A stretch of 64,000 nucleotides of DNA. Source: Gloeobacter morelensis MG652769 (GTDB lineage: Bacteria; Cyanobacteriota; Cyanobacteriia; Gloeobacterales; Gloeobacteraceae). This document shows, one piece after another, positions 9,148-40,939 of the stretch. The position numbers and the translations under genes are program-made. How positions within the stretch are numbered: position 1 is the stretch's first letter; each line of letters begins with the position of its first letter. The notes under the pieces are model-generated. The model saw nothing but the letters and a program-made list of their open reading frames with translations, did no database searches and had not been told where the DNA came from. The stretch lies in assembly GCF_021018745.1 (NCBI RefSeq), contig NZ_CP063845.1, positions 2,852,001 to 2,916,000 on the forward strand, written 5' to 3'.

Positions 9148-9196
9148 GGGATCTCCTGGGGGCGAACAGCAATAGACTGCTTTTATTGTGACCTGG

Positions 9197-10504
9197 CTAA
9201 AAGCTGCTGCCGCTGACGAAATTGAACTCGGCCACTTTGAGGGCCGGCAGCAGGCTGGGGGGCAGTTCGTTGTCGGCCGCCGCCTCGGGGCGGCTCAGAG
9301 CGAGGGTTTTGGAGAGCATTTCGAGGATGCTCTGGTTAAAGCGCAACACCTTCACCCCCTGGGTAATCTGGCCCTTTTCGATGAGAAACGTGCCGTCGCG
9401 CGTCAGGCCGGTGACCGTGGTTTCGTCGGGCTTGACGTCGCGGACGTACCAGACGTGGGTGACGAGCAATCCCCGCTCGGTGGAGCGAATCAGATCTTCG
9501 AGGCTCTTGTCCTCGCCTTCCATAGCGAGACTGTGGGGAGCAGGCACCGGCGGCCGGTTGTTTTTCTGGGCGGTAAAGCGGTCCCAGCGCATCTGCTGGA
9601 ACACGCCCCGGTCGATCCAGCTCAGTTGCGGCTGGGGTAGCCCCTCGCTGTCGAAGGGCACCGTCGGCAGACGGGTACTAGTGGGGTCGGTGCGCAGGGT
9701 GATGTTGGAGCCGACCAGTTTCTGGCCGATTTTGCCCGACAGGAACGTCACCCCGTCCAGGGTGTCGCGGGCGTCCATCTGCTCCACCAGGTGCAACAAC
9801 AGTGTGCCCACCGCCGCCGGGGCGAGGATGACCGTGTAGCGACCCGGCTCGACGGCCACGGGATTGACGCCCCGGCGGGCCTGCTCGATGGCGCTCTGGG
9901 CGATCCGCTCCGGCGACAACAGCGCCATGCGCGAGGCGACATCGCGCGCCCAGCCGGAACTGTCCGGTCCCTGCAGCGTGCAGCCGATCTGGGCATCGGT
10001 GCGCAGGTGGTAGGCGAACAGGCCGCTGGAAGCGGCCACCACCGAGACGCGCTCGCCGCTTTCGACCGTTCCGGCCGCCCGCAGGCTCGCCTTGCCGGCG
10101 GCACCCGCGATGAGGGCGGCGCGTTTGGCGCGCTCGACCGGTGTCAGGTTTGCGGTGGCCGGGTCGTAGGCATCCACCGCCAGATACTGCTGCCGGGGCA
10201 AAGGCGGCAGATATTCCGGGTCGGGCCGGGCCACCCGGGCCAGATCCTCGGCCCGGCCCACCGCCGTGCGGATCGCTTCTTCGCTCAGGCTGCTCACCCG
10301 CGCGGTGCCCCGGCGGTTCTCGAAGGCCACCTCCACCACCAACTCGGTGCCCGCATCCAGGGTGTTCTGGGTGATGGCGTTGTTGGCAAAGCGGGTGACG
10401 GCATTGCGGCGCTCGCCGAGGCGCACCAGCACGTCCTTGGCGCTCGCGGCCTTGAGGACCGTTTCGACCACCTTTTTGGCGCGCCCTTCATCGAGAAAAG
10501 CCAC
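9197..10504 (-). CDS. pmbA: TldD/PmbA family protease subunit, PmbA-like
   Basis: About 435 residues. TldD and PmbA (TldE) form a heteromeric metalloprotease that in E. coli degrades CcdA and processes microcin precursors. This partner lacks the HExxxH motif, as expected for PmbA/TldE. It lies immediately downstream of the HExxxH-bearing gene; a GTG start at 10504 falls one base after its stop. A longer frame from ATG 10564 would overlap the upstream gene by 59 nt and begin with non-PmbA-like sequence, so it is not used. Together the pair would make one heterodimer. Confidence 0.88.
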   Translation of the reverse strand: MAFLDEGRAKKVVETVLKAASAKDVLVRLGERRNAVTRFANNAITQNTLDAGTELVVEVAFENRRGTARVSSLSEEAIRTAVGRAEDLARVARPDPEYLPPLPRQQYLAVDAYDPATANLTPVERAKRAALIAGAAGKASLRAAGTVESGERVSVVAASSGLFAYHLRTDAQIGCTLQGPDSSGWARDVASRMALLSPERIAQSAIEQARRGVNPVAVEPGRYTVILAPAAVGTLLLHLVEQMDARDTLDGVTFLSGKIGQKLVGSNITLRTDPTSTRLPTVPFDSEGLPQPQLSWIDRGVFQQMRWDRFTAQKNNRPPVPAPHSLAMEGEDKSLEDLIRSTERGLLVTHVWYVRDVKPDETTVTGLTRDGTFLIEKGQITQGVKVLRFNQSILEMLSKTLALSRPEAAADNELPPSLLPALKVAEFNFVSGSSF

Positions 10505-36521: not shown

Positions 36522-37382
36522 ATGAATAATGCCGCACCGCTGTTTTCCCTGATGGGAAGCAGACTTTCGCTCGCCGATGTCACCCAGGCTCTGGCGCTGC
36601 GGCTGCAGCCGATCTTGCGCGAACGGCAGCGCCTGTGCGCGGATACAGCTATCGACACCGAACGCCGCAGTCGGCACCTGCGCGTTCTGGAGCGCGATGC
36701 CCAGCGCCAGGGTCTGGTGCAGCTGCACCAGCGCCTCGCGCTGATTTGCCGCAACTACGCGGCACGCAAGGGCACCGGCGACTCTGAGCGCTTCGATATC
36801 GAATCGTTTATCGAAGAAGTGGTCCTGCTCACCCACGCGCGCCTGCCGGAATTCGACCCGGACAAGGCCCGTTTTTCCACCTGGTTCGGCTCCCATATTC
36901 TCCGGCAGGTCTATACCGACATGCAGCGCCGCATCGATCCGAGCTGGCAGCGCCCCGAGCCGACGACGGCGGCGGGCCGGGCCGAACGTCAGGTCGCCCG
37001 CCGCATCGCTCGTCCCGACTCCCTCGACCGCCCGGTGCGCCTGGGCGCGGGGGGCGAAGAATCGACCAGCCAGGCCGAGCTGATCAATGTCTCCGTCTCC
37101 TATCCTTCTGCGGAGAACAGCCTGATCGAAGAAGACTGCCGCGACCGCTTCGTCGAAGCCCTTGCACAACTTGGCGAGGCCGACAAAGTCTTGCTCACCC
37201 GCCTTTATTTGCTGGGTGAGACCCAAAAGGAGATTGCCGCTTCGCTGGGGCGCACCCCGGCGCGCATTTGCCAAAGACTGCGCCTGATCTGCACCCGGCT
37301 TGCGGCGGTACTGGGAAGCGGCTTTGAGGCGGACTGCATCGATACCCAGTTTTGCGAAGCCCTGCGGAGGTGTGTGTCGTGA
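36522..37382 (+). CDS. Sigma-70 family RNA polymerase sigma factor (group 3-like)
   Basis: 286 residues. Region 2 is seen in EFDPDKARFSTWFGSHILRQ and region 4 near the C-terminus as EADKVLLTRLYLLGETQKEIAASLGR, a helix-turn-helix. The N-terminal region 1 is not the long form of housekeeping sigma factors. ATG 36522 has GGAG six bases upstream. Its stop overlaps the start of the next gene (GTGA), the usual arrangement of an alternative sigma factor and its regulator. Confidence 0.85.
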   Translation: MNNAAPLFSLMGSRLSLADVTQALALRLQPILRERQRLCADTAIDTERRSRHLRVLERDAQRQGLVQLHQRLALICRNYAARKGTGDSERFDIESFIEEVVLLTHARLPEFDPDKARFSTWFGSHILRQVYTDMQRRIDPSWQRPEPTTAAGRAERQVARRIARPDSLDRPVRLGAGGEESTSQAELINVSVSYPSAENSLIEEDCRDRFVEALAQLGEADKVLLTRLYLLGETQKEIAASLGRTPARICQRLRLICTRLAAVLGSGFEADCIDTQFCEALRRCVS

Positions 37383-38248
37383 TCGATCCTGAGCGCCTGG
37401 AGCGAACCCTGGGCGAGCTGATCCGCCGCTCCGGCTGGCCGGGAGCGGCAGGACCGCTCCCGGTGGCGGCCCCGCCTGAGGAGGAACGGCTGTGGCAGGA
37501 GGCGATGGCCGGTCCGGACCTGCGCCGGCAGTGGTCCCCCTGGCTTCTGGGAACTTCAGCCCTGGCCGTTGCCGCCGCAGTACTCGTCATGTTTGCAAGT
37601 ACCCGCCTGCTGCGGGAGCGCCCCCCTTCCCAAACCTCCCCCGGCAACTCCGACCCGGTGGCCATCACCGCAGCAAAGCCCCGCGAAGCACCCGCACCAC
37701 CCCGACCGGCGGCGCAGCCCCAAACTGCTTCTCCCCCCCCATCCCCCCGTCCAACGGTTTCAATCCCGGCAACTCCGCTCCCTGCCAAGCCGCGCCGACT
37801 TGCGGCACCTCCCCCCCTGCCACCGACTCTGCTCGCCGATGCCCCTCCCACCCCCCAACCGGGCTCCCCGCCGGTGCTCACCCGCAGTGGCGAACCCGGC
37901 CGCAGCGCCCCTGCCTCTGCACAGGCGAACGCCTCTGAACTGTATGCGTCCAGCCTTTGCTTCGCGCTCAGCAACCTCATCGACTTCCCAGAACAAGACA
38001 CAGGCCTGTCTATTTTCGAGGTGGCTCTTACCGTCGAAGGCGGGCGCGCTTCACTCAAAGAGCCGCCCCAGACCATCACCTCCGGTGGCGAAGCCCTCGA
38101 CGCGGCAGCCCGCACCGCCCTCGAAGCGCGGCCATTGCCCGGTTGGCCGCACCCCGAAAGCCTGTCCGCCCGCTACCTGCTGGTCTTCGATGTCGAACAG
38201 CAAAAGGTGACCTGCAAACAGACCCGCCCTTACCCTGACCCGCCCTAA
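37379..38248 (+). CDS. Membrane protein, probable anti-sigma factor with TonB-like C-terminal domain
   Basis: 289 residues. An N-terminal 50-residue acidic/basic cytoplasmic part, one transmembrane helix (about 53-74), a Pro/Ala/Ser-rich linker (about 80-185), and a C-terminal domain with Cys residues and a beta pattern resembling a TonB C-terminal fold (ALDAAARTALEARPLPGWP). The position directly behind and overlapping a sigma factor gene supports an anti-sigma role. The GTG has GGAGG eight bases upstream. No known anti-sigma motif is visible, so the role is inference. Confidence 0.7.
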   Translation: MIDPERLERTLGELIRRSGWPGAAGPLPVAAPPEEERLWQEAMAGPDLRRQWSPWLLGTSALAVAAAVLVMFASTRLLRERPPSQTSPGNSDPVAITAAKPREAPAPPRPAAQPQTASPPPSPRPTVSIPATPLPAKPRRLAAPPPLPPTLLADAPPTPQPGSPPVLTRSGEPGRSAPASAQANASELYASSLCFALSNLIDFPEQDTGLSIFEVALTVEGGRASLKEPPQTITSGGEALDAAARTALEARPLPGWPHPESLSARYLLVFDVEQQKVTCKQTRPYPDPP

Positions 38249-38258
38249 GCCAGTCCAT

Positions 38259-38293
38259 AAAAAAGCCCCCGGACGACCGCCGGGGGCTTTTTT
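38259..38293. terminator. Bidirectional rho-independent terminator
   Basis: A 14-bp perfect stem (38259-38272 with 38280-38293), core GCCCCCGG/CCGGGGGC, with A-run and T-run on the two sides. It ends transcription of the sigma/anti-sigma pair on the plus strand and of psaAB on the minus strand. Confidence 0.93.
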
Positions 38294-38308
38294 GTTGTTG
38301 GGAGGAAA

Positions 38309-40927
38309 TCAGCTGACCGGGACCACTTCGGTCTTGATCAAGATCTCCACCCGGCGGTTCTGCTGACGACCTTCGGGGTTGTCCGAACCGTCCGGCTTGG
38401 CGTTGGCGGCAACTGGCTTGGTCTCGCCGTACCCCTTCGCCGTCAGCCGCTCGGCCTCGATGCCTTTTTTCTCAAAGAAGGCCTTCACAGCGTTGGCCCG
38501 ATCTTCAGAGAGTTTCTGGTTGTAGGCATCTTCACCAAGGCTGTCGGTGTGCCCCAGGATTTCGACCGGCTCGCTGCCGTAGAACTGGATGACTCCAGCC
38601 ACCCGGTTTAGAGCCGGGTCGGCATCCAACTTGACATTGGATTTGTCGAAGTCAAAGACAATGTTCTCCGGCAACAGCAGCATCACCCCACCGGGCACCG
38701 GCTTGGCCTTGAACTCCGAAAGCACGCCTTTAGCCTGCTCCGCAGAGATAGCCGGGGTAAAAGCCGCCGGACCATTCGGATAGAGCGCCGCCGTCGAAGC
38801 GATCAAGAACGCCGCATAGGTCAGGATGTACCCAATCGTAAAGTGAGCCAGACCGACTAGACGGCCCTGGACGATCGACATCGCCACGGGCTTATCTTTC
38901 CAGCGCACCAGGTTGGCCAGGGGCGTGCGCTCGTGCGCCCACACCAGCGTTTCGATCAGTTCCTGCCAGTAGCCGCGCCAGGCGATGAGGAACATAAAGC
39001 CCGTCGCCCACACCAGGTGGCCGAACAGGAACATCCAGGCCCACACCGACAGGGCGTTGGTGCCGCCCGAGGGCGAGTAACCGCCGATCAAGGGCGCCGA
39101 GTTGGCCCACAGATAATCGCGCAACCATCCCATCAGGTAGGTGGAACTGGCGTTGAACTGGGCGACGTTGTCCCCCCAGATCGAAATCCACTTCCAGTGC
39201 CAGTAGAAGGTCACCCAACCGATCGTGTTGAGCATCCAGAAGACCGCCAGGTAAAAGGCGTCCCAGGCGGAGATGTCGCAGGTGCCGCCACGGCCGGGGC
39301 CGTCGCACGGGAAGGCAAAGCCGAAGTCCTTTTTGTCGGGCATCAGCTTGGAGCCGCGCGCGTCGAGCGCCCCTTTGACCAGGATGAGCGTGGTGGTGTG
39401 CAGACCCAGGGCGATGGCGTGGTGCACCAGGAAGTCGCCGGGGCCGATGGGCAGAAAGATGGGCGAGTTGTTGGCGTTGACCGAACCCAACCAGCCGGTC
39501 AGGAACTCACCCGGAGCGGTGACACCGGGGCCGCCGAACAAGGCCGGAATGCCCTCGATGATCTTGCCCGACTGCACCTGGACGAACTGGGCGAAGACCG
39601 GTTCGATGAGCAACTGGTCCTCAGGCCGACCGAAGGCGAGCATCACGTCGTTGTGGACGTAAAGACCCAGGGTGTGGAAGCCCAAAAACAGCGACACCCA
39701 GCTCAGGTGCGAGATGAGCGCCTCTTTGTGCTCGAGCATGCGCGCCAGCACATTGTTCTCGTTCGCCTTCGGGTCGTAGTCGCGCACGAAGAAGATCGCA
39801 CCGTGGGCAAAGGCGCCGACCATCAAAAATCCAGCGATGTACTGGTGATGGGTGTAGAGCGCCGCCATCGTGGTGTGATCTTGCGGCATGTAGAAGTACG
39901 CCGGCAGGGCGTAGGTGTGCTGCGCCACCAGTGAGGTGACCACACCCAGGCTGGCCAGGGCCAGACCGAGCTGGAAGTGCAGCGAGTTGTTGATCGTGTC
40001 GTAGAGGCCGCGGTGCCCTTCACCGGTGAGCGGACCTTTGTGGGCATCGAGGATCTCTTTGATCGAGTGGCCGATGCCGAAGTTGGTCCGGTACATGTGG
40101 CCCGCGATGATGAAGATCACCGCGATGGCCAGATGGTGGTGGGCGATGTCCGTGAGCCAGAGCGTTCCCGTGGCCGGGTTGAGGCCGCCGATAAACGTCA
40201 GAATCGGCGGACCCGCCTCCGGGTCGGCGTACACTCCCCAGTTGCCGGTGAAAAAGGGCGCCAGACCCGCCGGGTGGGGAAGGGTGTTCAGGAAGTTGCT
40301 CCAGTCGACGCGCTGGCCGCGGGCGGCCGGGATGGCGACGTGGATCATGTGGCCCGCGAAGGCCAGCGAGGAGACCCCAAACAGCGCCGAGAGGTGGTGG
40401 TTGAGGCGCGACTCGGCGTTCTTGAACCAGGCGAGGGACGGCCGGAAGCGGGGCTGCAAATGCAGCCAGCCCGCGATCAAGAAGACGGTCGCCAGCACCA
40501 TCAAGAAGATCGAACCCTGGTAGAGGTCCGAATTGAAGCGCATCCCGAGGGTGTAGTAGAGGTAATACAGCCCCGAGTAGGCAGCGTTGACCGGGCCTGC
40601 GCCCCCTTCGGGGGTGAAGGCTTCGACTGCGCCCTTGCCGAAGTGGGGATCCCAGATGGCGTGGGCGATGGGCACCACACCGGTGGGGTTGGCGACCCAC
40701 TGCTCGAAGTTGCCCTGCCAGGCGATGTGAAACAGGTTGCCCGAGGACCACAAAAAGATGATCGCCAGGTGGCCGAAGTGGGTGGCGAAGAGTTTCTGGT
40801 AGAGAGACTCTTCGGTCATCCCGTCGTGACTTTCAAAGTCGTGGGCGGTGGCGATACCGTACCAGATCCGGCGCGTGGTCGGGTCCTGTGCGAGGTCCTG
40901 GCTGAATTTTGGAAAACGAGTTGCCAT
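38309..40927 (-). CDS. psaB: Photosystem I core protein PsaB with C-terminal OmpA-like extension
   Basis: 872 residues. About 713 N-terminal residues are PsaB, with 11 transmembrane helices and the FX iron-sulfur ligand loop [12 protein letters not shown]. From about residue 717 comes an extra domain of roughly 155 residues. It has an OmpA C-terminal signature: [48 protein letters not shown] and RQQNRRVEI. OmpA-like domains bind peptidoglycan. The C-terminus of PsaB faces the lumen, which here equals the periplasm, so the tail could anchor photosystem I to the cell wall. Such an extension is reported for Gloeobacter violaceus PsaB. ATG 40927 has GGGAG upstream, 12 nt after psaA. Confidence 0.98.
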
Positions 40928-40939
40928 TGCTGTCACTCC

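Follow-up and report, generated by a model that had tools for sequence, protein, structure and literature searches.

The closest known design to the sigma factor family described here is that of IutY from Pseudomonas putida (ECF243), a fused sigma/anti-sigma protein of the FecI-FecR type which, in the relevant passages of PMC8999054, is activated by Prc and RseP. IutY is described there as a single polypeptide, made up of an N-terminal sigma domain, one membrane-spanning segment and a periplasmic portion, and as responding to an envelope signal, as we propose for the Gloeobacter family. However, FecR is missing from both the family and the genome, the tail has a predicted TolA/TonB fold, and no receptor adjoins the genes; furthermore, the copy described here consists of two genes, the one-protein form being found in 10 of 18 family members. 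The actinobacterial groups ECF52 (SCO4117), ECF48, and ECF53 also combine a sigma factor with a C-terminal transmembrane extension, which in ECF52 includes a periplasmic Pro-rich stretch, according to the sections of PMC8999054 that treat them, but these proteins carry a zinc finger, and ECF52 also a carbohydrate-binding domain, whereas the Gloeobacter proteins differ in their sigma factor and carry a TolA/TonB-like domain instead. The parts of PMC10028731 dealing with type III-E CRISPR systems describe how the TPR-CHAT protease Csx29, which is encoded with Csx30 and CASP-sigma, cleaves an inhibitor of a sigma factor; this arrangement resembles the Gloeobacter gene neighborhoods except that the Gloeobacter CHAT protein looks exported and its putative substrate is a membrane tether. 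TolA and TonB themselves share with the Gloeobacter membrane protein the helix, the Pro-rich arm and the predicted C-terminal fold; unlike them, the Gloeobacter protein lacks the helix His and any Pfam TonB match and is coupled to a sigma factor. Finally, passages of PMC8195603 describe cyanobacterial neighborhoods of sigma, DUF1822, and caspase-type proteins, in which a sigma gene is likewise followed by a second gene and a CHAT or caspase gene is sometimes near, but DUF1822 is a different protein and the sigma factors are only distantly alike (E values of 1e-12 to 1e-5).

The window is a stretch of 64,000 nucleotides from Gloeobacter morelensis MG652769 (NZ_CP063845.1, positions 2,852,001 to 2,916,000, forward strand). 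A preliminary description had reported a sigma gene that overlaps a second gene by GTGA, the latter encoding a one-helix membrane protein with a Pro-rich linker, and this arrangement was borne out. The gene for a 286-residue sigma-70 family protein occupies positions 36522 to 37382 on the plus strand (start ATG at 36522, stop TGA at 37380 to 37382) and shares the four bases GTGA at 37379 to 37382 with the gene for its 289-residue membrane partner (37379 to 38248, plus strand, start GTG at 37379, stop TAA at 38246 to 38248). The overlap gives the partner the co-transcription layout with a sigma gene that is taken as a mark of membrane anti-sigma factors. Orthologs of the pair in two other genomes keep this layout, with dN/dS values of 0.22 to 0.25 for the sigma factor, 0.32 to 0.50 for the partner, and 0.71 to 1.14 for the partner linker. 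Because of the conserved layout and these values, which indicate purifying selection, the partner gene is not a chance open reading frame. A terminator-like hairpin flanked by runs of A and T (38260 to 38294) separates the sigma operon from psaB, which is convergent with the pair (38309 to 40936, minus strand). The psaB product carries an OmpA-family domain after its photosystem I domain (residues 761 to 850, Pfam OmpA E value of 2.9e-19). This C-terminal extension is presumably a known feature of Gloeobacter, and a literature search returned no paper on it.

Membership of the first gene product in the sigma-70 family is supported by the NCBIfam model TIGR02937, whose cutoff of 42.9 bits it exceeds with 59.3 bits over a core at residues 75 to 260 (36744 to 37301, plus strand), and by the sigma fold predicted for a fused paralog. 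The region 4 helix-turn-helix (residues 208 to 260, 37143 to 37301, plus strand) matches the Pfam region 4 model slightly below its cutoff. With regard to group 3 or ECF (group 4) affiliation, PDB profile and fold matches were a mixture of WhiG/FliA and ECF sigma factors, and a region 3 match was obtained for 2 of the 18 family members, with a best E value of only 0.043. The protein ends in a family-specific tail, F268-x3-C272-x2-T275-x-F277-C278 (37323 to 37355, plus strand), in which F268, C272, and F277 are invariant and T275 is nearly invariant among 18 aligned sequences; the motif sits where the fused paralogs read on into the membrane part. A second invariant cysteine, C206, precedes region 4 and together with the tail motif could form a metal or redox site.

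The membrane partner can be divided into four segments. Its predicted cytoplasmic segment (37379 to 37534, plus strand) contains an IRRSGW motif, in which S18 and W20 are invariant in an alignment of 15 partners, and two helices in the AlphaFold2 model (residues 4 to 18 and 33 to 43), and is a candidate for sigma binding. That alignment covers 15 of the 18 partners, the others being L011, which is cut by a contig end, and L005 and L022, whose tails differ. A single hydrophobic helix follows (about residues 56 to 74, 37544 to 37600, plus strand, mean hydropathy of 2.14). Helices of TonB and TolA carry an S-x3-H motif, which is also present in the genome's own TonB; His was absent from the helices of all 18 family members, the one in the window included, and this helix is therefore probably not energized. 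The Pro-rich periplasmic linker (residues 81 to 178, 37619 to 37912, plus strand) is disordered in the model, and the Pro content is about 22% across the 150 residues after the helix. The C-terminal domain (residues 179 to 289, 37913 to 38245, plus strand) contains Cys194 and Cys279, which are nearly invariant in the 15 aligned partners.

The TonB C-terminal-like domain claimed in the preliminary description was upheld by structure prediction, although the 289-residue partner has no Pfam match and none of the 15 partners tested matched a Pfam TonB model, TonB_C included. The AlphaFold2 model, built from a 4-row alignment, had a mean pLDDT of 63 over the whole protein and block values of 71 to 90 from residue 181 on, with a last block of 65. 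A VIA-align 2 search with the predicted tail ranked TolA domain III first (4g7x_B, Z of 9.7, root mean square deviation [RMSD] of 3.4 over 97 residues), and the first 19 rows were all TolA, TonB, or the TonB homolog FusB, the first unrelated row following at a Z of 4.3. Foldseek alone matched the tail to 4g7x_B with an E value of 7e-3 and a probability of 1.00. In hhalign comparisons, the probability was 4% against the genome's own TonB and 79%, over 48 columns, against the tail of a distantly related sixth pair. Since sequence homology to the genome's own TonB is this weak, it is the predicted fold, that of TolA domain III and the TonB C-terminal domain, from which we argue that the tail is TolA/TonB-like.

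A protein search identified 18 full-length homologs of the sigma factor in five of six Gloeobacteraceae genomes, and six-frame reading showed the membrane partner to be present at every one of these loci. In 10 of the 18, sigma factor and partner form one reading frame of 564 to 641 residues (L002, L003, and L004 in the window's genome; L017 and L021 in G001; L015 in G002, the metagenome-assembled genome [MAG] of Aphanocapsa lilacina HA4352-LM1; L012, L016, and L020 in G003; and L014 in G005, the MAG of Gloeobacterales cyanobacterium ES-bin-313), which is strong evidence of a functional link. The remaining eight are separate overlapping genes, six with 4-base GTGA or ATGA overlaps (the window pair, L008, L009, L010, L011, and L013) and two, L005 and L022, with an overlap of 14 bases and a different partner tail. 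Fused and split copies thus coexist in one genome. Across species, the fusions had dN/dS values of 0.25 and 0.36, and the junction had values of 0.25 and 0.43, as expected if the fusion is kept under purifying selection and the joined stretch is constrained. A tree grouped 9 of the 10 fused copies (support of 85/89), and a single origin of all ten was not rejected (AU P value of 0.097). In the model of a fused paralog (6-row alignment, mean pLDDT of 58), the N-terminal half had a sigma fold (7lq4_A, WhiG, E value of 8.5e-4). A match to 1or7_B (Z of 8.8) had an RMSD of 16.6 Å over 163 residues, so that the sigma domains would be in different relative positions. The TonB C-terminal domain of 6sly matched into the tail (Z of 7.5, RMSD of 3.2 over 95 residues), approximately, because the aligned range begins far upstream.

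The count of 18 leaves out five weak matches (L006, L018, L019, L023, and L024) which belong to a sixth, distantly related sigma type with an overlapping membrane partner of its own (e.g., G000:C1:1147500-1149000, minus strand). The tail of this partner has a Pfam TonB_2 match below the cutoff (E value of 0.0047), and in the searches made the type was found only in Gloeobacteraceae. At L024 the partner frame was first picked as the sigma gene, and the partner tail was read later; at L019 an in-frame TAG lies inside the sigma match.

Fusions and a recurrent protease neighbor had both escaped the preliminary description because they lie outside the window. An all-against-all comparison of the surroundings of 13 sigma loci showed proteins of about 950 residues, members of a single recurrent family, to be encoded next to 10 of them, and overall a CHAT neighbor stands at 13 of the 18 sigma loci, including all ten fused ones. 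In this count L011 (L096), where the contig ends about 870 bases after the sigma gene, is entered as a miss, and a 28% match in L087 is excluded because this TPR frame is kinase-like and lacks CHAT motifs. A Pfam scan of 5 of the 13 neighbors identified in each a CHAT domain (E values of 7e-84 to 2.5e-94) together with TPR repeats, and the catalytic His/Cys pair is intact in all 13 linked and both unlinked proteins. Their N termini resemble signal peptides, and the proteases are probably exported; these signal peptides, as well as the start codons and hence the gaps between genes, were assigned by eye. Seven of the 13 CHAT genes lie on the same strand as the sigma gene within about 110 bases of it, in either order, two share its strand at a distance of about 1.5 kb, and four are on the opposite strand. 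At L081 a frame for an exported-looking protein that by eye resembles SGNH/GDSL hydrolases (9195 to 10238, plus strand) stands between the fused sigma gene and the CHAT neighbor. Of the six CHAT matches in the window's genome, four lie 1.1 to 6.7 kb from sigma genes, at four of five sigma loci. Random placement reached four of five in 2 of 2,000,000 trials, a figure that is to be read with a radius of 8 kb chosen after the stretches had been seen and with random placement as a simple null model. Neither the window pair nor its two close orthologs have a CHAT gene less than about 8 kb away; the nearest match is 639 kb from the window pair, and any protease at this locus would therefore act in trans or be a different one. 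The next relative of the pair, L010, has a CHAT gene directly downstream.

The preliminary description had suggested looking for the gene pair in other cyanobacteria. The pairing is conserved at all 18 sigma loci, but full-length homologs were found in Gloeobacterales only. At an E value of 1e-10, 1 of 194 genomes matched, the window's own, with no relative outside Gloeobacterales. A profile of the family sigma factors matched 134 of 386 genomes at an E value of 1e-6. Among the profile matches listed, full-length ones were confined to the window's genome, and nearly all of the others covered region 4 and the linker only, starting at about position 120, with one starting at position 75. A scan of genome contigs with two short peptide patterns returned three loci, all from Gloeobacterales, and a search of plasmids found no homolog of the sigma factor. 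Beyond Gloeobacterales, then, the resemblance to other sigma factors in the searches made is only of the region 4 type. A sigma-like frame directly precedes DUF1822 in 10 of 20 cyanobacterial loci fetched with flanks of 1.5 kb only and gives a weak match to the family profile. In the DUF1822 loci (L102 to L121 and L124) this frame is about 400 residues long and ends near the DUF1822 start, with a CHAT frame near some. It is possible that the Gloeobacter family is an offshoot of the sigma-DUF1822 pattern that has gained a new membrane arm. In the open-access literature searched, subscription papers being outside it, neither a fusion of a sigma factor with a TolA/TonB-like protein nor the Gloeobacter pairs themselves were seen to be described. 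PMC11119718, which surveys the domain layouts of cyanobacterial sigma factors, uses neither "transmembrane" nor "TonB" in its main text, and the passages of PMC2758279 that describe the sigG/sapG pair contain nothing like the sigma-TolA/TonB layout.

We hypothesize, with a probability of about one half, that Gloeobacterales possess a family of sigma factors which are tethered to the membrane and freed by cleavage of the tether upon an envelope signal, and that the window pair represents the two-gene form of this family. The sigma factor would be sequestered at the inner membrane by its one-helix partner or, in the fused paralogs, by its own C-terminal half. The Pro-rich arm and TolA/TonB-like domain would cross the periplasm and touch a component of the envelope or outer membrane; a change in this contact would lead to cutting of the tether in the periplasm or the membrane, and the released sigma factor would then bind RNA polymerase. 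The label of a sensing anti-sigma factor, used in the preliminary description, fits the split copies, and the fused copies are better named membrane-tethered sigma factors. At most of the paralogous loci the TPR-CHAT caspase-like protease encoded nearby, which appears to be exported, is a plausible candidate for making the first cut. We advance only tentatively the proposal that this protease cuts the periplasmic TolA/TonB-like arm, making a one-protein relay from the outer envelope to RNA polymerase and an envelope counterpart of the Csx29/Csx30 switch.

The linkage of CHAT and sigma genes could also exist because the sigma factor turns on the protease gene, the protease being a target or effector, in envelope stress or cell death, and not an activator. 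The close, same-strand order at several loci, in both orders, is consistent with this, as is the interpretation of sigma, DUF1822, and caspase neighborhoods as stress or death systems in passages of PMC8195603. However, the protease looks exported while the sigma factor is inside, and, judging the N termini by eye, it is the putative substrate arm that shares the compartment of the CHAT protein; we regard the effector role as doubtful too, though nearly as likely as the cutting role. Alternatively, the full-length tethered protein may act at the membrane and never be released, either in membrane-localized transcription or as a decoy that blocks RNA polymerase. A fused form of this kind would have no need of a separate inhibitor, but IutY, the fused sigma factor that has been investigated to date, is activated by proteolysis in the account given in passages of PMC8999054, and we consider permanent tethering unlikely.

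The nature of the envelope signal raises further alternatives. Cell surface signaling, in which the tail would dock on TonB-dependent receptors and report their loading to the sigma factor, replacing both FecR and the receptor signaling domain, would suit a genome with 38 matches to TonB-dependent receptor barrels. FecR was matched in none of 15 partners and nowhere in the genome at an E value of 0.01, which rules out an anti-sigma factor of the FecR type, and the STN signaling domain is absent from the receptor list, all five STN matches (E value of 0.01) falling in other frames. The predicted fold of the tail is, moreover, a receptor-binding fold. Yet a radius of 15 kb around each of the five sigma loci in this genome contains no receptor match, so that pairing of sigma factors with receptors by neighborhood is unsupported, and the best fold matches are to TolA domain III, not TonB, in a fold that has other binding partners too; docking on receptors is thus a possibility to which we give somewhat less weight than to either role of the CHAT protein. 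The N-terminal helix, the Pro-rich arm, and the TolA/TonB fold, along with three ExbB matches in the genome, might also suggest an energized transducer of the TonB/TolA type that pulls on the sigma factor via ExbB/ExbD. That is quite improbable given that the His present in the TonB helices of this genome is missing from all 18 helices of the family and that 0 of 15 partners match TonB_C. The genome encodes three full TonB proteins and one longer TonB_C protein over the cutoff. The TonB and ExbB places at L056/L057 and L061/L062 score identically, as if a transport operon had been duplicated almost unchanged.

Release of a tethered sigma factor by cleavage remains our preferred reading, and this model is directly testable because fused and split copies share one genome. 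We place the family among the transmembrane sigma/anti-sigma switches already known, as an apparently undescribed variant: it is lineage specific, its sigma factor and TolA/TonB-like arm form a single polypeptide in most copies, and it has a recurrent caspase-like neighbor. Gloeobacter is an early-branching genus, sister to all other cyanobacteria, which lacks thylakoids and whose inner membrane also carries photosynthesis. The repeated CHAT linkage offers a concrete candidate substrate for the little-studied bacterial relatives of caspases. Together, the family and this linkage suggest an undescribed route from an envelope signal to transcription; if this is true, integration of a sigma factor into a trans-periplasmic TolA/TonB-like protein, or its coupling to one, would be a new envelope-to-transcription layout.
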